Both the position numbers and the translations under genes were made by a program. DNA of 64,000 bases, from contig NZ_LT630003.1 in the NCBI RefSeq assembly GCF_900105615.1, forward strand, positions 682,001 to 746,000, written 5' to 3'. The stretch comes from Lacrimispora sphenoides JCM 1415 (GTDB lineage: Bacteria > Bacillota > Clostridia > Lachnospirales > Lachnospiraceae). The notes beneath the pieces were generated by a model, which had not been told where the DNA came from, ran no database searches, and saw only the letters and a list, made by a program, of their open reading frames with translations. Positions 42,646 to 58,968 of this stretch are shown piece by piece (position 1 is the first letter of the stretch; each line of letters opens with the position of its first letter).

Positions 42646-42884
42646 GAGCTATTTGTGCTACTAGAAAATTAGACATTTACCTTTGATGAAATGGAGAATC
42701 TATGGTTCGCCAAGATCAGTTATGAGATTTGCATTTCTGTATTGAGAGAATTAAGAAATATATAAAATAATAAGGGGAGAATATAATTCTAATATTGATG
42801 TAATTTCAAGTATTTTCAATATAAAAAAGAAAGAGCTTAAAAATCCTAAAAATCCTATATAGAATAGGGAATTTAAAGCTTAAC

Positions 42885-42902
42885 AAAAGCAGGGGAAGAG
42901 GG
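42885..42902. repeat. Left attachment repeat (copy of tRNA-Trp 3' end)
   Basis: Eighteen bases identical to 58893-58910. To its left a hairpin with a T run on the minus strand (about 42838-42880) looks like the original tRNA terminator left in the chromosome. The remainder of the gap 42646-43143 is AT-rich; it includes the perfect palindrome ATCAATATTGAT near 43023-43034. Confidence 0.75.
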
Positions 42903-43143: not shown

Positions 43144-43389
43144 ATGCCCCGTGGAGTACGCAAATCACCACTTGTAAAACTTAGAGATGAGCTAAAAGAT
43201 ACACAAGATTCAATAGAACAATACAAAGCTGCAATCAAAACACTTCAGGAAAAAGAGAAGCAAATACAAGAAGAAATTAAGTTAGAAGAATTTAAAGAAG
43301 TATCAACAATATTAGAAGAACAAAACATGTCCTTGTCGGAATTAAAGGAATTACTTATATCTAAAGCAGAAATTGAACAGGGTAGCTGA
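43144..43389 (+). CDS. Small coiled-coil protein
   Basis: From the ATG at 43144 (GGAGAGGA at 43132-43139) the protein has 81 residues. Basic first 12 residues (MPRGVRKSPLVK) are followed by a heptad-like coiled coil (about 13-60) and a short helical end (SLSELKELLISK). Function unknown; size and charge pattern recall small nucleoid-type or mobile-element accessory proteins, which is only an impression. A truncated second copy lies at 50657-50827. Confidence 0.7.
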   Translation: MPRGVRKSPLVKLRDELKDTQDSIEQYKAAIKTLQEKEKQIQEEIKLEEFKEVSTILEEQNMSLSELKELLISKAEIEQGS

Positions 43390-43395
43390 ATTTTG

Positions 43396-45699: not shown

Positions 45700-45882
45700 G
45701 ATGGGGGAAGACCGGTAAGACTGTGGGACCCTATCGGCACTAAAAAGGTTGTAGCCGAAAAAGAAAGTATGGGATTTTAAATGTAATACCTGCTTTTTGT
45801 CTAAGATAAAAATACCTAATATCTGAGAAAAAGAATGGTTAATGTAAAGAATTGTTGTTTACGTGTAACTAAATTAGTATTT
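45700..45882 (+). repeat. 183-bp direct repeat, copy 1
   Basis: Matches 58248-58430 over the same length with about 11 differences counted by eye and no gaps. Its first part reads as the end of a protein (RPVRLWDPIGTKKVV...SMGF, then stop), so both copies are probably the tail of a lost gene with its downstream region. Confidence 0.85.
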
Positions 45883-45911
45883 ACAGAATTATAGTACATT
45901 AAAAACTAATA

Positions 45912-45940
45912 TTGATAGTTAGAAGAGTTTATTGTATTAT
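45912..45940 (+). promoter_or_regulatory. Island-type promoter (TTGATAGTT motif)
   Basis: TTGATA at 45912-45917 and TATTAT at 45935-45940, spacer 17. The bases AATATTGATAGTTAG around the -35 box recur at 47026, 53388 and 57664. Confidence 0.7.
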
Positions 45941-45993
45941 TAATTAAAAATAGATTTATCGTATAATTGTTATTGGGATAAGAGGAGGAATAT

Positions 45994-46851
45994 ATGCTTT
46001 GGGTAGCGATAGTTTTGATTATGCTGGCAATCATGGTGATGTACTTAGCAATACCTGGTGGCAGGCTTTGGAAGCAATATCTTACAGATGTAAAACGTTC
46101 TATGACCGAAACAAATAGTCAAAGAAGCACACAGAGTATATTTACTGAAGAGTGTGTTGCTGAACTGCCCGTTCTGCTCCGGCAGCACATCATCAATGGG
46201 GGCTATATTGGAAAGCCTTTTATGGATAACATACTGATACATTTTCATGACACTAGGTTTCGTATGTCAGCAGGCAAAAAGCCAATTAAAATTAAATTCA
46301 TGCAGGTTAATTTTGTAAATAGGCCAGATCGACACGCATTTTTGACAGGAAGAATTGCGGGTATTCCATTGCACGCCAAAGACAGCGTATTGGACGGATT
46401 CGGCTCTATGATAGGTATGCTTGCCAAGCAGTTCGAGCTTTTCCACTCTACTGGGGCAGAAATGGATCAAGGTCAGTTGATAACGGCGTTGGCAGATGCA
46501 GTATATATGCCGTCCTTGTTTTTACAGGAATATGTATCGTGGACAGTCGTTGACAATTGCACGATTGAAGGTGAGATATCATGGAAGGGCGTTACTGCTA
46601 AAGGAAGATTTACTTTTGATAATAATGGCAACATAATACGTTTTGATACCAATGACCGATATATGGATAATAACGGGAAAGGCAGTTCGCTGGTACCATG
46701 GCATATAACCTATTCTGATTACAAAGAACAGAATGGTTACTTTCAGCCGGGAAGTGTTAGTGTAAGTTGGAGGCTCCCTGATGGTGACGATACATATTTT
46801 GTGAGCGACCATATTGAGGTTCTATACTCAATTAATGAAGCAATTTTATGA
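45994..46851 (+). CDS. DUF6544-type membrane-anchored protein
   Basis: The 285-residue protein has an N-terminal membrane helix (2-22) and a soluble domain with LPVLLRQHIINGGYIGKPFM, VNFVNRPDRHAFLTGRIAGIPL and SSLVPWHITYSDYKEQNGYFQPGS-type blocks, which I associate with DUF6544. The family's function is not known. GAGGAGG precedes the ATG. It has its own promoter and terminator, both of the island's repeated type. Confidence 0.75.
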   Translation: MLWVAIVLIMLAIMVMYLAIPGGRLWKQYLTDVKRSMTETNSQRSTQSIFTEECVAELPVLLRQHIINGGYIGKPFMDNILIHFHDTRFRMSAGKKPIKIKFMQVNFVNRPDRHAFLTGRIAGIPLHAKDSVLDGFGSMIGMLAKQFELFHSTGAEMDQGQLITALADAVYMPSLFLQEYVSWTVVDNCTIEGEISWKGVTAKGRFTFDNNGNIIRFDTNDRYMDNNGKGSSLVPWHITYSDYKEQNGYFQPGSVSVSWRLPDGDDTYFVSDHIEVLYSINEAIL

Positions 46852-46936
46852 CTTAATTATTTTACAGCGCAGCAGTAGGTTGTATTTTTTCTCAAAAGAT
46901 GAAACTCTCAAATTTTAATTCAATACGGTAATCGCG

Positions 46937-46972
46937 AACTACTAACTATCATTATTAGTTAGTAGTTTTTTT
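46937..46972 (+). terminator. Island-type terminator
   Basis: Perfect 12-base arms (46937-46948 and 46956-46967) and a T run. The left arm contains ACTAACTATCA, the complement of the promoter motif. Confidence 0.88.
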
Positions 46973-47028
46973 GCAGTAATTTAGTCTGTAAAATTAGCAT
47001 TGTATCAGTGAACTTTGAAAACTTAATA

Positions 47029-47057
47029 TTGATAGTTAGTAAGTATTGTGATATTCT
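47029..47057 (+). promoter_or_regulatory. Island-type promoter (TTGATAGTT motif)
   Basis: TTGATA at 47029-47034 and TATTCT at 47052-47057, spacer 17, with AATATTGATAGTTAGTA around the -35 box. Confidence 0.7.
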
Positions 47058-47112
47058 TTTAAAGATGATTTATAAAATGTGCAGATAAGCAGGAAATTGT
47101 GGGGTTATCTAC

Positions 47113-47739
47113 TTGTATGGTGAATTGAGAAATAATAAAAGTAATTTAGAATACCGTTCAATTATTTTAGCTACAATAATAGGTGCGATTTTAGGATTGG
47201 TGGCAAAGCTCGTGGATGTACCTGAGATTACTTCGGTATTGCCTATATTTGATGATTTATTCGGGCGATTTGGTATATGGATTTTTGTAGCCTCTATATT
47301 GTCTATTTTTTCCAATACGCCTATAAATGCAGCAATAAAAGTATTTAGTTTTTTTGTTTCAATGCTTATTATATATTATACATATACAATATTATTTCTT
47401 GGTTTTTTTCCGAAAACACAAATAATTTTATGGAGCAGTATATCACTAATTTCACCTATGTGCGCAGCTGTTATGTGGCATGCAAAAGAAACGAAACGAA
47501 TTGCTAATATCCTTGCGGCTTTACCAATCGTAGTAATGTGTACGGAATGGTATATAACAGGAAGCGAGAATACATTACTACTCGTGATATATTTATGTAT
47601 GATAGTATGCCTGCTAATCTGTGTACCCCAAAAGGTGAAGCGTAGCCTGCCCATTATCGTAATTGCGGCTGTGACGACTATATTGTTGATAAAAACAGGC
47701 TGGATGGAATTAATATATGGAAGGTTATTAAATGTATAA
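47113..47739 (+). CDS. Polytopic membrane protein
   Basis: A 208-residue protein with about seven hydrophobic segments. The start is TTG at 47113, after GTGGGG about 8 bases upstream; no better in-frame ATG exists near it. The sequence resembles small DUF-type integral membrane proteins found singly in clostridial accessory regions (DUF6518 is possible). Function unknown. Own promoter and terminator of the repeated island type. Confidence 0.7.
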   Translation: MYGELRNNKSNLEYRSIILATIIGAILGLVAKLVDVPEITSVLPIFDDLFGRFGIWIFVASILSIFSNTPINAAIKVFSFFVSMLIIYYTYTILFLGFFPKTQIILWSSISLISPMCAAVMWHAKETKRIANILAALPIVVMCTEWYITGSENTLLLVIYLCMIVCLLICVPQKVKRSLPIIVIAAVTTILLIKTGWMELIYGRLLNV

Positions 47740-47804
47740 GTTTTGATCCGATTAACTATGTTCTCGTTATGAACATATAACGAAGCCAATAAAATAAATA
47801 CTTC

Positions 47805-47846
47805 AAAAAACCATTAACTATCAGTATTGAGTTGATGGTTTTTTTT
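47805..47846 (+). terminator. Island-type terminator
   Basis: Arms 47805-47819 and 47830-47843 pair with one mismatch; the loop side contains AACTATCAGTATT. A long T run follows. Confidence 0.85.
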
Positions 47847-47858
47847 ATCCGTCCTCTG

Positions 47859-48149
47859 ATGGAAGTAATAGAAATTTCAGATAATGACAAGAAACAGATT
47901 ACGGAAGTCTTTAACCGAATTCCCGTAGTTCATGGGTTAATTGGTGATGCGAAGATCGCAAAAAGATTATTAACCAGGACACACTTAATTAGTGTAGTGC
48001 CAGCGATATGGAAATCGATAGAAAGTGGGCTTTCTGATAAACAAGTTGCAGAGTGGGTTACAGCTTTCCTTTCTGGAGGCAAGTCGGCCAGTGTTAGTAA
48101 AATATATAACGAGAATGCAGGTTCAGGATTTGCAGGAAGGAAGCAGTAA
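47859..48149 (+). CDS. Hypothetical protein, possibly a fragment
   Basis: A 96-residue soluble, helical frame (MEVIEISDNDKKQITEVFNR...). There is no ribosome site ahead of the ATG at 47859, and the frame begins right after a terminator, so this may be the C-terminal remnant of a larger gene. Family not recognised. Confidence 0.4.
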   Translation: MEVIEISDNDKKQITEVFNRIPVVHGLIGDAKIAKRLLTRTHLISVVPAIWKSIESGLSDKQVAEWVTAFLSGGKSASVSKIYNENAGSGFAGRKQ

Positions 48150-48378
48150 GGAAGCGTTTTAAACTGGCTTTATATCCTTTCCTATTAAAAATAACGAATC
48201 CTTCGTAAAAAAGAAAAATCAAGTGACACTAAAGCTTATAACCAATAAGAGAAAAAACCTTTATATTAAACTGCCTAAAACAAAGCAAAGGTTCTATTTT
48301 AATTTAGGAATGATAATAATGTTACATTTGGGAATAATGTGAATAATATATTATAAGGGTTAATAAGGAGGTGAATTT

Positions 48379-48615
48379 ATGCGAGGTTATTTGTCTATTG
48401 GGATTTTTTTCATCGGGATAATCTTGGCTGCTTATATTGGATATTGGAGTTTATTCATTAAGCCTATTATGGTTTGTGTATCGGCATCAAAGGCAGGAGC
48501 GTTAACGTCCGCACTTACAATGATGACAATAATCAAATGTGCATTATCATGGTTGGTTGCTGGTGTGATTTTTGGTTTGGGGTATATTGCTGCCATGATT
48601 GTGAGTCACAAATAA
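48379..48615 (+). CDS. Small two-helix membrane protein
   Basis: A 78-residue protein with two membrane segments (about 5-28 and 50-73) and a short loop. A strong AAGGAGGTG site lies ahead of the ATG at 48379. It is followed 28 bases later by a small acidic protein gene with its own good ribosome site, so the two form a likely operon. Function unknown. Confidence 0.65.
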   Translation: MRGYLSIGIFFIGIILAAYIGYWSLFIKPIMVCVSASKAGALTSALTMMTIIKCALSWLVAGVIFGLGYIAAMIVSHK

Positions 48616-48643
48616 TCTAGTTGTTGTATTGGAGGAAGAAACG

Positions 48644-48790
48644 ATGTTAAACGAAGATGTGCAAGCATGGGTAGATTTGGGGTTTTCAGAGGATGAGGCA
48701 ATTGTAATGGCAAACGCAATGAAGGATAGGTATGGTGATGTTGAAATAACAGATGATGACTCTGAGTCATCTCATAGTGAATTGTTTTGA
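48644..48790 (+). CDS. Small acidic protein (48 aa)
   Basis: The frame MLNEDVQAWVDLGFSEDEAI... is 48 residues, strongly acidic at the end (DDDSESSHSELF). GGAGGAAG lies about 6 bases ahead of the ATG. The WVDLGFSEDEAIVMANAM stretch looks like a UBA-like helical bundle. Probably partner of the membrane protein encoded upstream. Confidence 0.5.
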   Translation: MLNEDVQAWVDLGFSEDEAIVMANAMKDRYGDVEITDDDSESSHSELF

Positions 48791-48833
48791 GAACTGATAT
48801 GACAAAGAGGACATTCAATAAAGGAATGATTTT

Positions 48834-49202
48834 ATAAAAGTAATATTTTTAGATATTGGTGGTGTATTAAATTTCAACGGATGAGATAAAAGTGGCGGAA
48901 TTTATTTTGTAATTGATAACAGGATTAAACTTCTAAAGGAAATTATTATACAACAAGGGCAAAGATTGTCCTATCTTCAACCTGACAAATGGGCTGATTT
49001 GATAGAGATTATGGTCTACATAGTCAACACGTGGAAGATTTCAACATTAGGGGAAAAGCTAAAGAAATCTGAGATCATATTAATCTCAAGAACTCCGATA
49101 TTGCAAAGTGGATTTGGTGAAGAGATTAAATCATGGCTAGACAGTTGGAGGGACGAGCCAGTAGAGTCATTTGTAATTATAGATGATGATGCAGATATTT
49201 AA
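48834..49202 (+). pseudogene. HAD-like phosphatase pseudogene
   Basis: In one frame the sequence reads VIFLDIGGVLNFNG, then an in-frame TGA (near 48882), then continues to VIIDDDADI and stop. This resembles HAD domains linked to RNA-repair proteins (motif LDIDGVLN), with the second catalytic Asp replaced by Gly. No start codon is placed correctly. Broken gene. Confidence 0.6.
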
Positions 49203-49376
49203 TAGATATATACCTCTAATCCCAAAGGCCATCAACATATTAGAATTTATAATGAGTAAAAATGTGGAGTACTCAACAACCGATAGATATTTGTTTACAA
49301 AAGATGGTTGTCACTTGAATACAAACCAAATTAGCGTGGCATTGAGTCATGCATGTAGACAAGCCGGCATCTAGAT
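49199..49376 (+). pseudogene. Tyrosine recombinase (phage integrase) fragment
   Basis: The frame reads RYIPLIPKAINILEFIMSKN, then ...TDRYLFTKDG..LNTNQISVALSHACRQAGI and stops where integrases go on to the HxLRHT region. The end matches the central catalytic domain of clostridial tyrosine recombinases. The catalytic Tyr region is missing. Confidence 0.6.
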
Positions 49377-49550
49377 ATTCGAAGAAGTTTATATATAAAT
49401 AATCCGACTGTTTTAATGGCCGATTTTTAAAAAATGTGTTCGATTATTTTTCCAAATGAAAGCGTAAATTCAATAGGAAAAATTAATCAACATTTATTAA
49501 AATGTTTATAAATTAAAATATTAAATCAGTAAAAAAATATTGATATATTT

Positions 49551-49579
49551 TTGACAATGTTATATACTCTTTATATAAC
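49551..49579 (+). promoter_or_regulatory. Promoter of the alcohol dehydrogenase
   Basis: TTGACA at 49551-49556, TATAAC at 49574-49579, spacer 17; start codon 18 bases downstream of the -10 box. Confidence 0.75.
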
Positions 49580-49597
49580 TAAAAGGAGGTATACATA

Positions 49598-50650
49598 ATG
49601 AAAGGTTTTGGAATGCTCTCTATTAATAAAGCAGGTTGGATTGAAAAAGAACGTCCGAAATGTGGGGCTCTTGACGCGATTATCCGCCCAACTGTACTCG
49701 CTCCATGTTCCTCTGACAACCACCTTCTCCACGGTGGATTCGGAGACCGTAAAGATTTAATTCTTGGACATGAGGCCGTGGGTGAGATCGTTGAAGTCGG
49801 CAATTTGGTCAAGAATTTTAAAATAGGAGATATTGTTGTTGTACCTTGTACTACTCCGAATTGGCTTGCCGAGAATGTACAAGGTGAATATAATACGCAT
49901 GACGAAGGGCTCATGAAAAGTTTTAAGTTCTTAGGTTCCAAAGATGGTACTTTTGCGGAATATTTTCATGTTAATCAGGCAGATGCCAATCTAGTCCTTT
50001 TACCAGAAAACGTATTACCAGAAGCTGCTTTAATGACAGTTGACATGATGTCCACTGGTTTTCATGGTGTAGAAAACGCTAATGTCAGATTCGGTGATAA
50101 GGTTGTAGTCATCGGTATAGGGCCTGTGGGACTTATGTCGGTTGCAGGAGCTAAACTACATGGTGCTGGTCAACTGATTGCAATTGGAACTCGTCCGAAT
50201 TGTGTTAAAATTGCAAAGGAATACGGGGCAACAGACATTGTAAGTTACAAAGATGGTGATATCGTAAAACAGGTACTTGAATTGACCAAGGGTGGTGCTG
50301 ATTCTGTTATTATTGCAGGTGGAAGTGGGGATATTCTTCGGCAGGCTGTGGAAATGACGGTTCCGGGAGGATATATTTCCAATGTTAACTTCTTTGACGC
50401 TCAGGACGTGCTCTCTATGCCCACATTTTCATGGGGTCTTGGCATGTCAAATAAAACAATTTGTGGAGGATTCTGTCCTGGCGGGGCCCTTCGGATTAGA
50501 AAAATGCTTAATATGGTTCAACATGGTAGGGTTGATACAACAAAACTTATCACACATCGATATAACGGTTTATCAAAAATTGAAGACGCTTTTTATTTAA
50601 TGGATCAGAAGCCACAGGATTTAATTAAACCGATAGTTTTTATTGATTAA
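49598..50650 (+). CDS. Zinc-dependent NADP(H) secondary alcohol dehydrogenase
   Basis: The 350-residue protein is very like the Thermoanaerobacter and C. beijerinckii secondary alcohol dehydrogenases. Catalytic zinc ligands are Cys37 and His58-Glu59 (GHEAVG), with an Asp near 149 (VDMMSTG). The Rossmann motif GIGPVGLM and the GTRPNC loop, with its Arg, indicate NADP(H). It would interconvert ketones and secondary alcohols such as acetone and isopropanol. AAAGGAGG is 8 bases ahead of the ATG. It has no partner genes in the island. Confidence 0.92.
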   Translation: MKGFGMLSINKAGWIEKERPKCGALDAIIRPTVLAPCSSDNHLLHGGFGDRKDLILGHEAVGEIVEVGNLVKNFKIGDIVVVPCTTPNWLAENVQGEYNTHDEGLMKSFKFLGSKDGTFAEYFHVNQADANLVLLPENVLPEAALMTVDMMSTGFHGVENANVRFGDKVVVIGIGPVGLMSVAGAKLHGAGQLIAIGTRPNCVKIAKEYGATDIVSYKDGDIVKQVLELTKGGADSVIIAGGSGDILRQAVEMTVPGGYISNVNFFDAQDVLSMPTFSWGLGMSNKTICGGFCPGGALRIRKMLNMVQHGRVDTTKLITHRYNGLSKIEDAFYLMDQKPQDLIKPIVFID

Positions 50651-50656
50651 AAGTAA

Positions 50657-50827
50657 GAGCAATATAAGACTGCAATCAAAACACTTCAGGAAAAAGAGAA
50701 GCAAATACAAGATGAAATTAAATTAGAGTTTAAAGAAGTTTCAACTATATTTGAAGAGCAAAACATGTCCTTGTCGGAATTAAAGGAATTACTTATATCA
50801 AAAGCAGAAATTGAACAAGGTAGCTGA
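50657..50827 (+). pseudogene. Truncated copy of the 43144 coiled-coil gene
   Basis: The frame EQYKTAIKTLQEKEKQ...AEIEQGS matches residues about 26-81 of the coiled-coil protein at 43144-43389, with one codon missing and a few substitutions. It lacks a start and follows a stop codon immediately. The terminator is duplicated too (about 50833-50867), with compensating base changes. Confidence 0.85.
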
Positions 50828-51061
50828 ATTTACGCCGAGAATCTTCGCAATGGAGGTTTTCGGCATTTGGTTAAATAAAGAGGTAACTTCTATAAGACGA
50901 ATAATGCTTGAAAAGACAGAATTTACTTCCAACTTTTCACCACTTCACAAGTGTAATTCCTGGGTCTATAATAATGAATATAAAGAATTATCCAAACAAG
51001 AATAAAAAAACAACCATACCGCATTGCGCGGTTTAATGGACAAGTATTCTAAAATTCATGC

Positions 51062-51111
51062 AAACCTCCAGACTGGTGTGGGATATTAATCAGTTTGGAG
51101 GTTTATTTTTT
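51062..51111 (+). terminator. Hairpin terminator
   Basis: AAACCTCCA (51062-51070) pairs with TGGAGGTTT (51096-51104), then ATTTTTT. The gene it served is not clear; 50830-51060 has only a weak frame. Confidence 0.7.
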
Positions 51112-51165
51112 ACGAAATAAGGAACGATTCCTCAAGTGAGACGTTTTCCAGTATAATAAATGCCA

Positions 51166-51495
51166 CTAACTTCCGATAATAGGCATGGATCGAATATACT
51201 GTATATTCGTTATTTGTTCTACCATAAAGGCGTCAATGTCCTCGCGAGAGATGTTAAAACTCATCTTCACATCTCCATAACCCACTTTTACTTTGCCTAC
51301 ATATGGAGTATCCTTGGGTGCCATGAATCGCACCATTGTCCAATCAAGATTTGATCTTGAAACAAGTTCACCTATAGCCAACATTTCACCTTTTGCCTGT
51401 TTTAATGCAATGCCAGCCAAAATACCAGGTACAATTGTTATGAATGATTTCTTGTCATTCTCAAAAGGTACACTAGGGGTTGCCCATTCAATCAA
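51166..51495 (-). pseudogene. NmrA/SDR-like NAD(P)-binding protein, C-terminal remnant
   Basis: The 109-residue frame contains WTMVRFMAPKDTPYVGKVKVG and MSFNISREDIDAFMVEQ, typical of the C-terminal half of NAD(P)H-binding (NmrA-like) proteins. The Rossmann N-terminal half with GATG is missing, so it is a truncated gene; the frame can be followed upstream to about 51520. Confidence 0.6.
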
Positions 51496-51743
51496 GCGTG
51501 TGACAAGGGAACATGTGCCTAATAAAAAAGAAGCTAAGTTAATTCGAAAAAATAAAGCATTAAAATGCTGATTTAAATGAAGGATTCAAAATATGATTAG
51601 AGCATTGTCTATTACTATTTATCGTCAATTCAGAAACGGTTCAAGACACTCAACTTCTTTTGTTTTAAAAAAAAAACATTAAGAATTAATAGGTAAGGTC
51701 GACTATAATAATGTAGTATTATAAAATAGAAAGAGGTAATAAG

Positions 51744-52070
51744 ATGAATGAAGAAACATTAGTATTTGGTAAAGGTATTAAAATCTGGAGCATTATATGC
51801 ATTGTTTTAGGCGCACTTTCTTTAATTGTTAATTGTACATTAGGATTTTTTGATCTAGCTGTTATAGGCGTAGCTATCTGCGCTGCTTATATTCTATTGT
51901 TAGTTAAGAAAAGAAAGATTGCATTTTATGCCATTGTAGTTTGTACAATAATTATAATGGTTCTAAATATGGCAATACATGATGTAGGTATTATAACCTC
52001 ATTAACCGGTTTCATAAATCCTATTATTACATTTTGTTTTCTATCAAAATACTGGAAACAGATGGAATAG
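51744..52070 (+). CDS. Small four-helix membrane protein
   Basis: A 108-residue protein with four hydrophobic segments (about 13-32, 35-53, 60-78, 82-100). AAGAGGT lies 8 bases before the ATG at 51744. No recognised family. It ends at an AACTATC-type hairpin terminator like other genes of the island, but its upstream region does not show the TTGATAGTT promoter motif. Confidence 0.65.
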   Translation: MNEETLVFGKGIKIWSIICIVLGALSLIVNCTLGFFDLAVIGVAICAAYILLLVKKRKIAFYAIVVCTIIIMVLNMAIHDVGIITSLTGFINPIITFCFLSKYWKQME

Positions 52071-52098
52071 GCTTTTAGAATAAGGTGATTATATGGCA

Positions 52099-52128
52099 GC
52101 AACTATCTAAAATGGTAGTTGCTTTTTT
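52099..52128 (+). terminator. Island-type terminator
   Basis: GCAACTATC (52099-52107) and GGTAGTTGC (52114-52122) pair over 9 bases with one T-G pair, then TTTTTT. Confidence 0.85.
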
Positions 52129-52281
52129 ATATTTATGTGACAAGATATCTGTTATTCTGCCAATAAAGAGAACAGAGGCTTAGGGCAATATTTCTCAAAA
52201 CCACTGTTCCCTTATAAAATTTTTATTCTTTTTCCTCTTCTGCAGCGATTCTGTAATTTTAGTATGCGCTTTATTTTGACC

Positions 52282-52500
52282 TTAGATGTCTTCTACTTTT
52301 ATTTCATTATTGTTGACCAATATTGCTTGACTATTACTAATTGGGGTTAAGTTTAATGTAGAAGAATAAGTATCAATAATTTTTTGTACAGCTTTCTTGA
52401 AAGGGGGATTGTTATAGTGTGGTACAGCATAAAACTCTACAAAACCTAAAGCAGAGTAGCCTATGTTTGAAGGTTGGGTGTTAGGTGTAAAGTTTTACAC
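52282..52500 (-). pseudogene. Peptidase E / class I glutamine amidotransferase-like remnant
   Basis: On the minus strand a frame reads NIGYSALGFVEFYAVPHYNN followed by PFKKAVQKIIDTYSS..., ending NNNEIKVEDI and stop. The G-F-hydrophobic-PHYN pattern is the C-terminal part of peptidase E-like (S51) proteins. The front is missing. The rest of 52130-52800 holds only short broken frames on both strands. Confidence 0.5.
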
Positions 52501-52802
52501 ATGGTCGGGGTATAATAAAGCGTATAACGAAGCTGTCAGTAATGGGTTGTTTAAGATAAAAATGGAAAGGCAATAGTGAAGAAGTTATGATGGATAATAT
52601 ATTAGAAAACTAATCGTGATCAGGGAGGGGTTTTTGATAGTTTGCCAAATGGTGAACTTGGAGAAAGTTTGATTGATTTTAATGGAAAAGGCTAATATTT
52701 AGCTTTGAAATAGGTGTTTGAAGCTTAAGATTGATGACGAACAGGAAGTTAGAATACTAGAGCAGTAAATGTAATGAGATCTACGCTTAAGGAGTGGCAA
52801 AT

Positions 52803-53360
52803 ATGAATCAATTACCAGAAGGATATAAGGAAATAAGAAAGGTAGATTTGACAGAAGATAAAAAAACATTTATTGTTATAAACTTCTTTTCATTTATAAT
52901 TTTTATCGCTATGGCAGTTTTAGGTGCCATTATTATACCAATAAGCTTTACTGTTGATTCAAAATTTTTGTACCTATTAATCCTTGCTGTATTTTTGTAT
53001 ATAATCTATATCATTTTACATGAAGCGATACACGGATATTTTATGAAAAAATTTAGTGGGATAAAGGCATATTACGGCCATGCAATGTTCTGTGCATATG
53101 CAGGTAGTGATGCTTATTTCAATAAAAAGCATTACATCATAATATCACTTGCTCCTGTTGCAATTCTCGGCATTGTTTTATTTATAATTAATGCTATAGT
53201 ACCACAGAGTTATTTTTGGGTGATATATTTTGTACAAATGGGGAACTTAGCGGGTGCTACCGGCGACTTTTATGTAACCTATTTAATGAGTAAGATGCCT
53301 GATGACACTTTAACTCACGACACAGGTGAGTCTATGACAATGTATTCAAGACAATCGTAA
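52803..53360 (+). CDS. DUF3267 family putative zinc metallopeptidase
   Basis: From the ATG at 52803 (AAGGAG at 52789-52794) the membrane protein has 185 residues. The zincin motif HEAIH is at residues 73-77 in the second membrane segment, and a GNLAGATGDFY block supplies a possible third ligand. This matches DUF3267, a putative intramembrane zinc peptidase family. Substrate unknown. It ends close to the AACTATCAATA palindrome at 53375. Confidence 0.8.
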   Translation: MNQLPEGYKEIRKVDLTEDKKTFIVINFFSFIIFIAMAVLGAIIIPISFTVDSKFLYLLILAVFLYIIYIILHEAIHGYFMKKFSGIKAYYGHAMFCAYAGSDAYFNKKHYIIISLAPVAILGIVLFIINAIVPQSYFWVIYFVQMGNLAGATGDFYVTYLMSKMPDDTLTHDTGESMTMYSRQS

Positions 53361-53374
53361 TCTAAATTATTTTA

Positions 53375-53420
53375 AACTATCAATAAGCGTATTGATAGTT
53401 AATAAATTTGGTGGTATTCA
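53375..53420 (+). promoter_or_regulatory. Fused island terminator arm and promoter
   Basis: AACTATCAATA (53375-53385) and TATTGATAGTT (53390-53400) form a perfect 11-base palindrome. The second arm is also a -35 box: TTGATA (53392-53397), 17-base spacer, TATTCA (53415-53420). The promoter faces the IS110 insertion. Confidence 0.65.
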
Positions 53421-53597
53421 ATACCTGAAGGTAAAGATACGGCGATATTTGATACAAATTCAAACCAATAATTTAGCCTGCAAATAAAAAGTCAATAGGA
53501 AATTAATAAGATTTGCAGAAAAAGTTTTATGCAGTGTTTTTTGTATCACAAACAGACCACCGCTAAACGCTGGTCTGAAAAAGCTATGAAGCCAGAG

Positions 53598-54809
53598 TTA
53601 TTCTGACTGGGGAAGGGAATCTAAGTATTCTTTCACCCGTCCGTAGTAGATTCGCAGAAACTTGTTGGCACCGGCAGTCATGTAGACATAGTAGGATTTC
53701 CCCTGAGAGCGTTTTTTTGACATAAACTCGTAGACTGGATCATCTGCTGGGGATGTCTTAATTAATACGTCCATGACCTGAAATAAAGTCTTGCGGAGTT
53801 GGGCAGAGCCACGTTTTGAAGTGCGGACACTTTGCTGCTCGTAAGCCCCTGACTGGTTTGCCCCTGGATCAACTCCGGCAAATGCTGTAATCGCTCCCCG
53901 GTGAGAAAAACGGGCTACATCGCCGATTTCAGCCATGAGCTGGGGACCAAGAGATGGGCCGACACCTTTCATAGCCATAACAATCGGGTATTCCGGAAGT
54001 TTGGCCGCAGTCTGGTTCATCTTGCTGCGAAGTTCTTCTACGATTTTGGAGGCAGTGTCTAGTTGGTCTATCGCCTGTTTTATGAGCATTTTGGTCATTG
54101 GATCTTTTGAAAGAACTGCTATAAGGTTTTCTGAAGCAGTGTAAATTTCTCCTGGTTTATCAGGCTGGAAGTTATAGCCTTTGCGCCTACACCATTTCTG
54201 ATAATGCTCTGTAAACGCAGGGAGGGACATCTTGCGAACACAGTCTACATGCCAATAAGCAGATGCAAAATCAACCCATTTCTGGCTGCCGTCACTGCGA
54301 ACAGGGCTGTCAAAAAAATCATTGGCACCAGGATAGGTCTGATCAAGTAAAGAGATTAAGTTGTTTTTGAAGGAGGTCTTCTGCTTCATGTAGAAATCAA
54401 ACTGCCGATTCATGGTTTTGAGTTGAGTGCGTATTTCATCCATAAGACTATACTGTTTCAAATCGGTCCAGTTGTCAAGAGTATAACGGGCAATTTTTAT
54501 AGCATCTGCTTTATCCGTCTTGACTTTACGGAGAGAGTTGTTGCCAAAATCTTTGATGAGTTTTGGATTAACAGCACTGACAAACAGTCCGGCACCGGAA
54601 AGCCAGTGAGCCATTGGCTCATAGTAGCGTCCGGTGTGCTCCATAACGATTCTGGTGTCACCGTCCAGGGACTGGATATGGGAGATAAGTTCATTAATCC
54701 CACTGGATGTATGCAGGACCTCAAAGGGACTGGAAACAATTTCACCGAAGGGGCGAAGGATGGCAATCATACTCTTACCTTTGGAAACATCAACACCGAC
54801 AGCATTCAT
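53598..54809 (-). CDS. IS110-family transposase (DEDD recombinase)
   Basis: The 403-residue protein has an N-terminal RuvC-like DEDD domain (Asp7 in VGVDVSKGK; MEHTGRYYEP; DKADAIKIA) and a C-terminal Transposase_20 domain (about 270-360; KGVGPSLGPQLMAEIGD, AFAGVDPGANQSG, then the catalytic serine region RGSAQLRKTLF). This family moves by a circular form and is guided by a bridge RNA from the non-coding end. The gene is intact, at typical length (about 400 residues). Confidence 0.95.
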   Translation of the reverse strand: MNAVGVDVSKGKSMIAILRPFGEIVSSPFEVLHTSSGINELISHIQSLDGDTRIVMEHTGRYYEPMAHWLSGAGLFVSAVNPKLIKDFGNNSLRKVKTDKADAIKIARYTLDNWTDLKQYSLMDEIRTQLKTMNRQFDFYMKQKTSFKNNLISLLDQTYPGANDFFDSPVRSDGSQKWVDFASAYWHVDCVRKMSLPAFTEHYQKWCRRKGYNFQPDKPGEIYTASENLIAVLSKDPMTKMLIKQAIDQLDTASKIVEELRSKMNQTAAKLPEYPIVMAMKGVGPSLGPQLMAEIGDVARFSHRGAITAFAGVDPGANQSGAYEQQSVRTSKRGSAQLRKTLFQVMDVLIKTSPADDPVYEFMSKKRSQGKSYYVYMTAGANKFLRIYYGRVKEYLDSLPQSE

Positions 54810-54814
54810 AAATA

Positions 54815-55075
54815 TGTCACTCCTTAAAAAATGATAGTAGCAATGGATCCAGGTTTACTCATTGCCGATTCAATCTACTGTGGTGTGACACGAACGTGCT
54901 GGGAAAGCAGTTCAACCTGCATAAAACGAACGCTGCGAATGAGGAGCTGGTTGGCAGACTAAATTACGGACGTGAAGCCCAAGGAGGTGACCGCCGGACC
55001 AATTGCTCTCTACATTCTAACAGCTTAAGCAACAAGAAGGAATATGGACATGGCTGGTTTGTCATGTACCATAAC
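54815..55075 (-). ncRNA. Candidate IS110 bridge RNA region
   Basis: In IS110-group elements the non-coding end upstream of the transposase encodes the bridge RNA that pairs with target and donor DNA. The 265-base stretch here is of the right size and placement, and less AT-rich than its surroundings. I cannot fold it fully by eye, so the borders and strand are inferred. Confidence 0.45.
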
Positions 55076-55107
55076 CTATAAAATTATTGTAGTAGAGAGG
55101 TGGCATT

Positions 55108-55770
55108 ATGAGAGATTTTTATGATGTAATCAAATCAAGGCAGACAATTAGAGATTTTGAAAACGCATCCATAAATGATGAGGTTATAGAAAGAATTATT
55201 TCAGCGGGAATGAAAGCGCCTACAAATGACCACATGAGAGATTGGCATTTCATTGTTATTAAGGATAAGAATACTGTAGTTAAATTAATCAATAAAATAC
55301 CAGAGCAGATATCTGATGGCGAAGTCAATTCCATATTGCGAGATTGGAACTTAAATGATACTTGCCAACAAAATACCTACAAAGATGCAATTCCAAAACA
55401 GTATCAAATGTTAGCAGAGTCAGCTAGTTTGATTGTTCCATTGTTTAAACAAAAGACGGATATATTGCATCCTAAAAATCTTTCTCACTTAAATGGTTAT
55501 GCGTCTATTTGGTGTTGTATTGAAAATATGTTTCTGGCAATAACTGCTGAGGGATATGCATCTGCTTTACGCATTCCTTTAGGAGATGAAGGAGACTGGG
55601 CAAGAAAAGTCTTAAATTTTCCAGAGGATTATCTTATGCCGTGTTTTATAGCTGTGGGAAAAGAGAGTGCAAATGCTTCATGCGTAAAACAAAAAGAATA
55701 CTCTGTAACCGAGAGAATACATAAGAATGCCTGTAATAAATTCCATTTGGTACTTGCCAATTATGGGTAA
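55108..55770 (+). CDS. Nitroreductase-family flavoprotein
   Basis: The 220-residue protein begins MRDFYDVIKSRQTIRDFEN, with the FMN-binding Arg-Ser/Arg pattern, then GMKAPTNDHMRDWHFIVI and the later C-terminal WCCIENMFLAITAEG...LRIPLG block. It probably reduces nitro compounds or quinones with NAD(P)H. GAGAGGTGG precedes the ATG. Its original promoter may be the one now separated from it by the IS110 element. It ends in an island-type terminator. Confidence 0.85.
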   Translation: MRDFYDVIKSRQTIRDFENASINDEVIERIISAGMKAPTNDHMRDWHFIVIKDKNTVVKLINKIPEQISDGEVNSILRDWNLNDTCQQNTYKDAIPKQYQMLAESASLIVPLFKQKTDILHPKNLSHLNGYASIWCCIENMFLAITAEGYASALRIPLGDEGDWARKVLNFPEDYLMPCFIAVGKESANASCVKQKEYSVTERIHKNACNKFHLVLANYG

Positions 55771-55797
55771 AAAGTAAAATTATTAAAAGTGAACATG

Positions 55798-55839
55798 AAA
55801 AAAACTACTAACTATCAGTATTAAGCTGGTAGTTTTTTT
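55798..55839 (+). terminator. Island-type terminator
   Basis: AACTACTAACT (55803-55813) against AGCTGGTAGTT (55824-55834), loop including ATCAGTATT; a T run follows. Confidence 0.8.
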
Positions 55840-55859
55840 ATTTAGCAATTTAATCAAGT

Positions 55860-56069
55860 ATGGCGCATTCTTGTGAGGAAAACAATATTATGACCACTGG
55901 AGGATATAAGAGTTTCGTACCTTATCAGGATGTTGAGAGAAATCTCATCAAAGAAGGTTTTGATGTACTTGTATTTATTCCCAGCAGTGATGAAGATGAG
56001 GGGCGAATTACATGTGGTAACGCAATATTGAGCGGCACTCTTCCTGAGTGTGAATACAAAATTGTTTAA
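55860..56069 (+). CDS. Hypothetical protein or gene fragment
   Basis: A 69-residue frame (MAHSCEENNIMTTGGYKSFV...) without any ribosome site. It is soluble, acidic, and ends EGRITCGNAILSG...CEYKIV. It may be the end of a larger gene. Family not recognised. Confidence 0.35.
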   Translation: MAHSCEENNIMTTGGYKSFVPYQDVERNLIKEGFDVLVFIPSSDEDEGRITCGNAILSGTLPECEYKIV

Positions 56070-56103
56070 TAGAATGGTTCTTTCATTTGTGTTAGTAAAG
56101 ACA

Positions 56104-56135
56104 TAAAAAAAAGACCACTTATAAGCAGTCTTTTC
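56104..56135 (-). terminator. Cold-shock gene terminator
   Basis: AAAAGAC and GTCTTTT pair around a 12-base loop; on the minus strand a T run follows. Confidence 0.75.
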
Positions 56136-56146
56136 TATCACTTGGT

Positions 56147-56347
56147 TTATGCAGGACGAACATTAACAGCCTGTGGTCCACGATTACCTTCTGTTACATC
56201 AAATGTTACAGACTGACCATCATCTAAAGACTTATAACCGTCCATAGCAAGACCTGAGAAATGAACGAAAATTTCATTACCCTGCTCGTCGCTGATAAAA
56301 CCAAATCCCTTTTGTGCATTAAACCATTTTACTGTACCTTTATTCAT
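56147..56347 (-). CDS. Cold-shock protein (CspA family)
   Basis: The 66-residue protein has both RNA-binding motifs, KGFGFI (RNP1) and IFVHF (RNP2), in one cold-shock domain starting [12 protein letters not shown]. It binds single-stranded RNA as a chaperone. GGAGGTA precedes the ATG. The long 5' leader contains a strong hairpin and the gene ends in a terminator (about 56104-56135). Confidence 0.95.
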
Positions 56348-56397
56348 GAAAGATACCTCCTAATTATTAATATTATATTTTCGTTAAAACTAAAAAT

Positions 56398-56447
56398 CGC
56401 ATATATATGTAAATCATCAATAGAATAATGACTTACATATATATGCG
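56398..56447 (-). promoter_or_regulatory. Hairpin in the cold-shock mRNA leader
   Basis: Perfect 15-base arms (56398-56412 and 56433-56447) around a 20-base AT-rich loop, about 50-100 bases upstream of the start codon. Candidate temperature-responsive structure. Confidence 0.7.
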
Positions 56448-56476
56448 AAATCAAGACCTTATTAAAATACTGATTT

Positions 56477-56505
56477 AGCATAACACAATAGTTTGAATAA
56501 GTCAA
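56477..56505 (-). promoter_or_regulatory. Cold-shock gene promoter
   Basis: On the minus strand TTGACT (56500-56505) and TATGCT (56477-56482), spacer 17. It gives a leader of about 120 bases. Confidence 0.65.
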
Positions 56506-56699
56506 GGGGAAAATAGTATGAGCAACAAAATAGTATTTATTTAATATAAAGGTGTTTTATTGGAGTGGTGGTTATTTGTCAAATAGCATGGGTAATGCGT
56601 CCAGCGTGTCCGGCATTACATAACCTTCCGGCTGATCGGCAGTGCCAGGGCCGGAAGGGGAGTCATAATGGAAGTATAAACAAGTTTTACTTATAGGCA

Positions 56700-57368
56700 T
56701 TATTTACTATTGGTAAAATCCACTTCCAATACATCAACATTCTCTAAAAGGGCATTTGCTTGAGTTGTTGTTGAAGCAGTATCTTTTTTATCTATAGCAT
56801 CTTTTAAACTGATCATATTATTTTGAAAGCTATCGATATCATTTTTATAATTTGAACTTAGCTTAGAGGACACGTTTTTCCATAGTTTATTAGTTGTTTC
56901 GTAGTTACTACTTGCTGAGGACCAGTCAGAATTTTCAGCATTAAGAAGCAACTCTCTTCCAAGATAATCTAATCTTCCTATATCTGTAGGAATGGTGGTA
57001 GCATAACTATCTGCAATATCAGGTACATATTTTGAGATCTGATTAGCTTGAACTCTTGAATCATAAGATTTTTTTGAAGAAACGGCTGTTTCAAGATTAT
57101 TGATTGCAGTATTAAGTCCATCTATTGTTTTGGTAGAAATTTTTGATGATTCCATGATTGGCTTTAAGTTAGCATAATCAGTTTTTATGGTATTAACTCT
57201 GTTTTGTGCTGCGTCCCAATCATCTCCAGTTATATCATCTATAATATCCTCAGCGTTAGATTCAATGCTACTTAATTGTGTTGGTGGATTTTCAAGTGCT
57301 TTTTTTTGGCAACCTGTCAATAGAAAAATGCAAACAGATAAGAAAATTAAAAGCATTTTTTTTAGCAT
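56700..57368 (-). CDS. Lipoprotein with helical repeat region
   Basis: A 222-residue protein with a signal peptide and lipobox LLTGC (Cys20), then a soluble, strongly helical domain rich in Asn, Ser and Asp with heptad-like leucines. It should sit on the outer membrane face. A ribosome site AGAGGT precedes the ATG at 57368. No domain recognised. The 56521-56699 stretch between it and the cold-shock promoter contains only short broken frames. Confidence 0.65.
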   Translation of the reverse strand: MLKKMLLIFLSVCIFLLTGCQKKALENPPTQLSSIESNAEDIIDDITGDDWDAAQNRVNTIKTDYANLKPIMESSKISTKTIDGLNTAINNLETAVSSKKSYDSRVQANQISKYVPDIADSYATTIPTDIGRLDYLGRELLLNAENSDWSSASSNYETTNKLWKNVSSKLSSNYKNDIDSFQNNMISLKDAIDKKDTASTTTQANALLENVDVLEVDFTNSK

Positions 57369-57459
57369 GATAGATACCTCTTTCCATATTTTGTTTTATT
57401 ATGGTATGTAAATAAGTGATTTTTATTCAATAAGATTAGAATTTTCGTGAGGTGATTAT

Positions 57460-57630
57460 ATGCTATGGCATGAAATTGTCTGTGACGAATGCAGCACCGT
57501 TCTTGATGGCTTTTCTGGCACTGGTAATTATAATTTAAGGATAAAAAAGATTGCTAAAGATTGAGGCTGGTTTGTTAAAAAGAATGGCTATGCACTATGT
57601 CCAGATTGTAAGGATAAAAAAGCAAATTAA
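57460..57630 (+). pseudogene. Zinc-ribbon small protein interrupted by TGA
   Basis: From the ATG at 57460 (GAGGTGAT upstream), 34 codons are read to KIAKD, then a TGA at 57562-57564, then 21 more codons in frame ending PDCKDKKAN. The CDEC and CPDC pairs together would make one zinc ribbon, so the TGA breaks a single protein. Confidence 0.6.
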
Positions 57631-57666
57631 TATTTAAAAGATTTTTTGTTCTTTGATAATTGAATA

Positions 57667-57695
57667 TTGATAGTTGATAGCAAATGCGGTATGAT
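57667..57695 (+). promoter_or_regulatory. Island-type promoter (TTGATAGTT motif)
   Basis: TTGATA at 57667-57672 and TATGAT at 57690-57695, spacer 17, with AATATTGATAGTT as at the other island promoters. Confidence 0.7.
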
Positions 57696-57729
57696 AAATC
57701 ATATAATTCGTACTAAGGGGGAAAGAGGA

Positions 57730-57963
57730 ATGCTACAGATTGGAGCTTTGCTGATGTTGATTTCAGGACTGTGGGATGTATTTGGTGCTTCAAAGAGGAT
57801 TGACAAGAGCAAGCTTGGGGTGGGAGAGACCGTGGAAATTGCCGCTGAGAAAATTAAGAGTAGGGGAAGGCGTTTTATATTGCTGGCAATAGTAGCATCT
57901 ATAGTTAGCTTATTCATGCCGCAGATTGTATTGTTAATTCTTAATTTCGTTAATTTGTTCTAG
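57730..57963 (+). CDS. Small membrane protein
   Basis: A 77-residue protein from the ATG at 57730 with two hydrophobic segments (about 3-20 and 50-75) joined by a charged loop. A GGGGGAAAGAGG stretch lies upstream. It has both island-type signals: the promoter at 57667 and the hairpin terminator at 57991. Unknown function. Confidence 0.6.
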   Translation: MLQIGALLMLISGLWDVFGASKRIDKSKLGVGETVEIAAEKIKSRGRRFILLAIVASIVSLFMPQIVLLILNFVNLF

Positions 57964-57990
57964 AATTTGTTTTATAGATAAAATAGATTA

Positions 57991-58018
57991 CCAACTATCA
58001 ACCAGGTAGTTGGTTTTT
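57991..58018 (+). terminator. Island-type terminator
   Basis: CCAACTATC (57991-57999) and GGTAGTTGG (58005-58013) pair over 9 bases with one T-G pair, then a T run. Confidence 0.85.
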
Positions 58019-58087
58019 TGTTGCCATAAATCAGTTAAACTGAGATTTGACGTGATAATAAATTCAAAATTTGAAAGGAGAAACATT

Positions 58088-58247: not shown

Positions 58248-58430
58248 GATGGGTGAAGGCCGGTAAGACCGTGGGACCCTACCGGCACTAAAAAGGTTGT
58301 AACCGAAAAAGCAAGTAAGGGATTTTAAATGTAATACCTGCTTTTTCTCTAAGATAATAATACCTAATATCTGAGCAAAAGAATGGTTAATGTAATGAAT
58401 TGTTGTTTACGTGTAACTAAATTAGTATTT
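58248..58430 (+). repeat. 183-bp direct repeat, copy 2
   Basis: Matches 45700-45882 (see that entry). The coding reading in this copy gives RPVRPWDPTGTKKVV...SKGF and stop, but its upstream part is broken. The rest of 58431-58675 has no gene that I can support. Confidence 0.85.
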
Positions 58431-58675
58431 CCCAGAGTACTATCCATAAAAGAGAGTAGCCGACAAAACCTGAGGAAGATTTTATCGGCTGAAGTATGAA
58501 CATGAAATATCCGTTCTTAAATAGGATATCATACTTTACTGAAATAAAGCTGAAAAAATAAAAGAATTGAAAAGCAGTATTTGACAGTTGTTAGATCTCG
58601 TCGTAACAGAAAGCTAGAAAGGAAACGAGTTATCAAACTCGACCTTACAGATTCGGATAGTGTAATAGTAAACTA

Positions 58676-58805
58676 GATGCGGGTGAGGTTCCCACTGATG
58701 AAATAAGGACTTTACTAGGTCATACAGATGCTCAGACATCATTGGATATATTTTTAATCCGCTTCCAAAGGACGAAACATTAAATATGATTCAAAATTCA
58801 TTCTA
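58676..58805 (+). pseudogene. Tyrosine recombinase C-terminus, frameshifted
   Basis: The frame reads DAGEVPTDEIRTLLGHTDAQ..SLDI, with the conserved LGHT block, then after a one-base shift continues NPLPKDETLNMIQNSF and stop. This is the catalytic C-terminus of an integrase, directly beside the tRNA as expected for the element's own integrase. The catalytic Tyr region is damaged by the shift. Confidence 0.65.
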
Positions 58806-58839
58806 AAATATAGGTGTAGTCAAGTGTATTCAACGGATA

Positions 58840-58886
58840 AAAAAGGAAAAACCCCAAACTCCTTATAGATACAAAGGAATTTAGGG
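58840..58886 (-). terminator. tRNA-Trp terminator
   Basis: On the minus strand CCCTAAATTCCTT (58874-58886) pairs with AAGGAGTTTGGGG (58852-58864), two G-T pairs, and is followed by TTTTT. Confidence 0.75.
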
Positions 58887-58892
58887 CATACT

Positions 58893-58910
58893 AAAAGCAG
58901 GGGAAGAGGG
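58893..58910. repeat. Right attachment repeat
   Basis: Identical to 42885-42902; overlaps the last 13 bases of the tRNA-Trp gene. Confidence 0.75.
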
Positions 58911-58968
58911 GCTCGAACCCCCATTTACGGTTTTGGAGACCGTTGCTCTACCATTGAACTATTCCCCT
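58898..58968 (-). tRNA. tRNA-Trp (anticodon CCA)
   Basis: The minus strand folds as a cloverleaf: acceptor AGGGGAA with TTCCCCT, D arm GTTC/GAGC, anticodon stem ACGGT/ACCGT with loop CTCCAAA (anticodon CCA), and T arm GGGGG-TTCGAGC-CCCTC. The discriminator base is G; CCA is not encoded. Confidence 0.93.

Follow-up and report, generated by a model that had tools for sequence, protein, structure and literature searches.

The word and the genes that it frames

The window analyzed here, a stretch of 64,000 nucleotides from Lacrimispora sphenoides JCM 1415 (contig NZ_LT630003.1, positions 682,001 to 746,000), contains between 45.9 and 58.0 kb a set of genes framed by copies of a 13-bp word. In promoter orientation, AATATTGATAGTT, the word is the −35 part of a block of ∼55 bp (P); inverted, it supplies a terminator hairpin (T) with its inner arm and its loop. 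The features, in window coordinates, are as follows.

45871–47001, +: cassette A (DUF6544 gene), core to core, bounds from the match with locus L245 (G006)
45871–45882, +: 12-bp core AAATTAGTATTT at the left end of cassette A, from the sequence
45908–45940, +: P block of A, with the word, −35 box TTGATA at 45912, 17-bp spacer and TATTAT
45994–46851, +: gene A, 285 aa, DUF6544 (Pfam, 212.7 bits)
46937–46972, +: T of A, hairpin AACTACTAACTATCATTATTAGTTAGTAGTT with T-run
46990–47001, +: core joining cassettes A and B, AAAATTAGCATT
47025–47057, +: P block of cassette B
47113–47739, +: gene B, 208 aa, membrane-like; DUF6518 match under its cut-off
47807–47846, +: T of B, exact word at 47816
51744–52070, +: gene C, 108 aa, no Pfam match; no P block recognized upstream
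52099–52128, +: diverged T-like hairpin 3′ of gene C
52794–53360, +: gene D, DUF3267 (Pfam); no P block recognized upstream
53374–53400, +: terminator word of D fused to promoter word of E, AAACTATCAATA-AGCG-TATTGATAGTT
53392–53420, +: cassette E, −35 to −10
53477–55092, −: IS110-family element between the promoter and the gene of cassette E; its transposase (53598–54809) matches PF01548 and PF02371
55108–55770, +: gene E, nitroreductase, 220 aa (Pfam)
55803–55839, +: T of E, exact word at 55810
57625–58052, +: cassette F with core-like ends, common to L012, flanks unrelated
57663–57695, +: P block of F, subfamily 2
57730–57963, +: gene F, 77 aa, no Pfam match
57990–58019, +: T of F, loop altered, ACCAACTATCAACCAGGTAGTTGG
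58248–58451, +: second copy of a 204-bp repeat (90% identity to 45700–45903), core at 58419–58430 with no P after it

The exact word (AACTATCARTATT) occurs five times in the window, each time within 45908–57675. With up to two mismatches there are 17 matches, against 4.99 expected, and none of 100 shuffles attains 17; three weak matches inside the region (49536, 52368, and 56362) have no recognizable promoter or hairpin. An earlier sequence-only reading of this DNA had reported about ten copies at 45.9–58.0 kb. Two of the hairpins hold the exact word and the others are mismatched or diverged, and the figure of ten therefore applies only when mismatches are allowed. The four promoters that it proposed are all recovered as predicted elements, with TTGATA at 45912, 47029, 53392, and 57667, a 17-bp spacer in each case, and the −10 boxes TATTAT, TATTCT, TATTCA, and TATGAT. 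Hairpins likewise lie near all six positions at which it had placed terminators, but the exact word is found only at 47.8 and 55.8 kb: the hairpin at 46.9 kb carries one mismatch, those at 52.1 and 58.0 kb retain AACTATC and little else, and the one at 53374–53400 has no T-run, its terminator word being fused to the next promoter word. Four features go beyond that reading, namely a direct-repeat core outside the words, a moron-like setting in prophages, coupled subfamilies of P and T, and the splitting of the nitroreductase cassette by the IS110 element.

Distribution and controls

The L. sphenoides genome (5.30 Mb, one contig) contains 11 exact words and no copy of the reversed control: five in the window, four clustered at 2394.9–2399.9 kb, and two single. 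The claim that the flanking chromosome lacks the full word thus holds within the window, where no exact copy lies elsewhere, but not for the genome, in which six more copies show that the word is not confined to the island. Across 25 Lacrimispora genomes, the exact word occurs 206 times and its reversed control eight times. In 36 genomes outside the genus, 12 from the same family and 24 from the order, the count is at chance level, with 20 copies against 25 for the control. The P pattern matches 32 stretches among named genomes, 14 of them labelled Lacrimispora and the rest including Anaerocolumna, Anaerosporobacter, Muricomes, Konateibacter, and Faecalicatena, as well as 21 stretches of viral contigs. 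At 15 P sites from 14 loci, picked mostly outside Lacrimispora, a hairpin of the same family is the first or second terminator in ten cases, one of them without the word.

The genome and its relatives were searched for the words, as the sequence-only reading had proposed. In 64 loci of the genus there are 116 distinct exact words, of which 97 coincide with a promoter or a terminator; for shuffled words, 10 of 53 matches do so. A sigma-70-type promoter of its own is predicted at 54 of the 116, a terminator hairpin at 30, and both at 13; among the 19 scored as neither, 14 resemble P blocks with a poor −10 box and five appear stray. The consensus of P is AAATTAGNATTTAACG-ATTA-TGTACATTGAAAACTT AATATTGATAGTT AG followed by the −10 box, with conservation beginning sharply at about P-38, and that of T is AACTACTAACTATCAGTATTAAGCTGGTAGTTTTTT (118 P and 78 T windows). 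Because these windows were gathered with patterns that contain the word, we also made a less biased check on the first terminator after each P. After removal of 13 of the 118 P sites near an end and 28 without a generic terminator within 2.5 kb, the first generic terminator held the word (≤ 3 mismatches) in 57 of 77 cases, and ∼12 of the remaining 20 were the same hairpin with a changed loop. The background was 22 of 113 terminators in 19 word-bearing loci.

The shuffles, the reversed control, and the shuffled-word controls rule out a chance repeat and confirm, at the level of sequence, that the repeated word is real. A known RNA family was likewise rejected, Rfam having returned tRNA alone in the five sources searched. 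In one unit of the second island of the same genome (L007:550–1035), a rare variant with AGCT in place of AGTT is present in the P word and again in the T word.

Units, subfamilies, and cargo

We collected 60 P–gene–T units, 55 of them non-redundant, with the P and T words already in inverted orientation. Among the 55, the median distance from P word to T word is 613 bp and the median largest open reading frame (ORF) is 179 aa. By sequence, most units thus present what is expected of a moron, a single gene between its own promoter and terminator; units longer than 2 kb hold more than one ORF. The longest ORF runs from P to T in 59 of the 60, and an invertible unit was rejected on this ground.

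Two subfamilies can be distinguished, CTT..AG and TTG/CCG..GG, and their P and T types are coupled: 28 non-redundant units pair P1 with T1 and 13 pair P2 with T2, with no clear cross and 14 unclear, among which L059 and L045 look intermediate. Concerted evolution of P and T inside a unit left no clear signal in subfamily 1.

The cargo consists mostly of single, unrelated genes throughout the genus, which bears out the sequence-only reading that the framed genes are functionally unrelated. Pfam was run on the largest ORF of 40 of the 55 units (E 0.01) and gave a match in 26, including eight GNAT, two glyoxalase, and two DUF2971 proteins, together with BacA, cupin, histidine phosphatase, HAD, FRG, MazG, FMN reductase, abhydrolase, and others. 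Among ten hand-picked proteins, PADLOC matched five at E 0.01, two of them weakly; three have clear matches to candidate anti-phage families, PDC-S31 twice and PDC-S15 once, and the cargo concerned is:

L115:9959–10732, L106:1762–2772, and L151:721–1449: genes with PDC-S31 or PDC-S15 matches

Many units are located in what appear to be prophages, as phage morons are. Phage replication, methyltransferase, and integrase genes flank the units at some loci, and PHROGs matched eight of ten flanking proteins from six loci; the flanks of other units are mostly ordinary chromosomal genes.

Movement of units between contexts

Sequence comparisons demonstrate that P–gene–T units move as units. In six pairs, chosen from a longer list that also has pairs with common flanks around different genes and a few with both in common, gene and frame are 83–93% identical between different flanks, and the matches end at P-16 to P-50 and T+28 to T+62. 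Over 1133 bp, exactly 45871–47001, cassette A is 95.2% identical to L245 (G006), the flanks being different; the match runs from AAATTAGTATTT to AAATTAGCATT, 12-bp direct repeats of the core AAAYTRGNATTT lying outside P and T. Gene A is also found at 83% identity in L246 (G012), where the frame is absent. Cassette F occurs in three contexts (the window, the second island L012, and G014) with unrelated sequence on both sides, its second-island and G014 copies being 94% identical over 351 aligned bp. G009 and G008 share a glyoxalase cassette (L060/L251), 91% identical over the stretch that begins at the left core and ends at the T-run. Among 15 loci examined with this glyoxalase gene, L249 and L251 have both words, and the other 13 have no frame. 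Such framed and unframed copies of one gene (glyoxalase, DUF6544) may show a host gene becoming a cassette. Cassette E, split in the window, is contiguous and free of the IS110 element in two other genomes (L239 and L240), and homology to these begins at 53390, inside the word fused to the terminator word of gene D.

Sites without a cassette were found at L186 compared with L184, L191 compared with L190, L159 compared with L062 (upstream side only), and L235. A search of all loci returned one believable case plus trivial self-overlaps, the others coming from slot-by-slot comparison. At L186/L184, L191/L190, and L235 the unit is inserted between genes that are adjacent in a related phage.

A 12-bp core and clustered breakpoints

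With up to two mismatches, 60 of 114 P sites have the core AAAYTRGNATTT upstream, in 58 cases at P-37 to P-39 (controls 4 to 12), and 33 of 75 T sites have it downstream (controls 4 to 6). Right borders also fall there: L283 begins at the core and L284 four bases into it. The same sequence also follows stop codons naturally in these phages, AACTGANATTT occurring 48 times against five for its reverse.

Across 210 non-overlapping loci we located 1886 homology breakpoints. Within 10 bp of the core there are 100, against 24.9 under uniform placement (maximum 43 in 1000 simulations) and 29.4 with local shifting (maximum 45); the reversed core has 19 against 10.4. Within 10 bp of the word there are 88, against 14.7 (maximum 28) and 28.7 (maximum 46), respectively. 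This sequence pattern shows exchange taking place at the core and frame, and it answers positively the proposal that gene gain and loss should break at the words. Taken with the recurring units, their unrelated genes, and the reuse of gene plus frame, these breaks at the frame support the earlier suggestion of stand-alone expression cassettes built on a common frame.

A dispersed repeat of ∼150 bp, GGAGCCGGTAAGA..TACCGGCTGAAG..GTGAAGAGTTTGTGAAAG (e.g. L081:3821–3960), occurs in several copies per genome in all 25 genomes, often directly before P, and had no Rfam match in the sources searched.

Comparison with known systems

Morons are described in one study as single coding regions with their own promoter and terminator between phage genes that are adjacent in relatives; the same study calls their acquisition mysterious and reports that its variable regions yielded no common recombinase target (PMC4378225). 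The units resemble them in framing a single gene and, in many cases, in what appears to be a prophage location near replication and methyltransferase genes. Unlike those morons, the units here put unrelated genes into a common frame that has inverted ends and a direct-repeat core, and the same units are also found next to ordinary chromosomal genes. Shared ends, exchange points, and cassette-free sites among many unrelated morons of a single genus make the question of moron acquisition testable. Full-text searches on morons, Lacrimispora prophages, and attC sites in Lachnospiraceae, with subscription papers outside their scope, returned no paper that seemed to describe this frame.

Integron cassettes are similar in carrying mostly one gene, in occurring as arrays and singly, in their mixed cargo (GNAT, glyoxalase, MazG, hydrolases), and in having a direct-repeat core at the border, inverted sequences on both sides of it, and a foldable junction. 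They differ in that integron cargo is normally promoterless, whereas each cassette here has its own promoter, and in that the core here is AAAYTRGNATTT rather than GTTRRRY. The attC boxes of integrons are GTTRRRY/RYYYAAC; by inspection against this consensus, the core goes on with AAC in subfamily 1, giving ATTTAAC, which fits one box in reverse complement and has no partner, and subfamily 2 offers none. An integron was rejected, as none of the 25 genomes passes the TIGR02249 integrase cut-off of 265 bits (best 93.9).

The Xer/pdif modules of Acinetobacter plasmids, as portrayed in PMC13141974, are small groups of genes with inversely oriented sites at their ends, and are shuffled between replicons. 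Inversely oriented sites at both ends also mark our 60 units, which were collected in that orientation. In the plasmid modules the 28-bp site is itself the crossover, whereas here the words lie inside a direct-repeat core and serve as promoter and terminator. Inspection of P for the 28-bp XerC-6-XerD site revealed no clear 11-6-11 dyad, the chromosomal dif of the genus not having been looked up. Linkers of phage modules, short shared border sequences proposed to promote homologous exchange (PMC3029335), share with the frame their position at module borders; the frame differs in pairing a promoter and a terminator around one cargo gene and in occurring outside phages as well. Transposon or miniature inverted-repeat transposable element ends fit poorly: the words do not lie at the border but ∼26 bp inward of the left core, and no target duplication was visible by eye at L186/L184, although the flanking cores are direct repeats.

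Origin and movement of the cassettes

We consider it somewhat probable that small mobile gene cassettes, exchanged through shared end blocks, have the words as their matching inverted ends. A full cassette would consist of a 12-bp core, ∼26 bp, the promoter word, usually one gene, the inverted terminator word, 30–50 bp, and a second core, and prophages would largely carry such cassettes, as morons. Cassettes would recombine through end blocks shared within a subfamily, most likely in a homologous or phage annealing-type reaction, since the breakpoints are scattered over the whole 55-bp P block or lie at the T hairpin. The promoter would allow expression wherever a cassette lands, and the terminator would shield its neighbours; promoter, terminator, and exchange site in one sequence would be a compact natural design. 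Several observations weigh against shared-end exchange. It leaves the inverted P and T copies in both subfamilies unexplained if homologous, and in subfamily 1 the similarity between a unit's own P and T does not clearly exceed that of random pairs (over 22 columns, p 0.34; for the 13-mer alone, 0.03). At up to two mismatches, 54 of the 114 P sites and 42 of the 75 T sites have no core, and left borders are not uniform, a second class abutting the ∼150-bp dispersed repeat without a core. Part of the breakpoint enrichment at the word is built in, since the word is what brings any two P blocks into alignment, and the reversed word is also in excess in these cassette-centred loci (7 against 1.4).

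The inversion of the words between the two ends of a cassette, seen in both subfamilies together with type coupling, would suit a dedicated system. In it, a recombinase supplied in trans would recognize the 12-bp core with the inverted words around it as arm sites, and would excise and insert circular or folded single-stranded cassettes in the manner of integrons, which use other sites. The direct-repeat core at both ends with its fixed 26-bp gap to the P word points the same way, as do the conserved terminator loop, unneeded for termination alone, the core found between T and P in four of four tight T–P junctions scanned, and the folding of P against T in five of six junction single strands (z −2.4 to −3.6; the sixth, at z −1.6, does not fold). 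Yet borders vary, some having no core, no circle was seen, and the absence of any recombinase from the 40 largest-ORF proteins (Pfam, E 0.01) counts against such a system, which we regard as possible but doubtful. None of the 16 PF00589 tyrosine recombinase matches in the L. sphenoides genome lies within 250 kb of either word cluster, the integron-integrase cut-off is reached in none of the 25 genomes, and an autonomous copy with its own recombinase was not found among the 40 proteins scanned from the 55 units. We put forward only tentatively an integron-independent cassette system in Lachnospiraceae, with a trans-acting recombinase on the core and words doubling as −35 box and terminator loop; if real, it would unite mobility and expression in one piece of DNA and give phages a route to acquire morons. 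A regulon, in which the word at promoters is the binding site of a single host or phage protein and its copies in terminators arise by chance or serve looping, would account for conservation of P over at least 20 bases upstream of the −35 box, beyond the needs of a bare promoter, and for the presence of P in all 25 genomes of the genus. It is improbable, since on its own it fails to explain the terminator words, the P/T coupling, the direct-repeat core, and the movement of whole units. Ordinary morons gained by illegitimate recombination, their promoters and terminators alike through common descent or host preference and the frame without a role in movement, would be compatible with the phage setting and with the variable left borders at some phage slots; the conserved loop and core, the coupled inverted ends, the reuse of gene plus frame in chromosome and phage, and the clustering of breakpoints make this explanation very unlikely.

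Borders of the island and neighbouring features

The two copies of the 204-bp direct repeat (45700–45903 and 58248–58451) surround the cassette region, the first standing left of cassette A; the second looks like an unoccupied site. A partial repeat, 42839–42902 and 58847–58968, extends into a tRNA gene (ARAGORN: Trp, 58897–58968), and what by eye is a decayed integrase end lies at ∼58640–58810. This tRNA-side repeat and the integrase end are probably the borders of a tRNA-linked island. A small coiled-coil-like ORF is partly duplicated (92–93%) at 43215–43393 and 50656–50831, its second copy being truncated.

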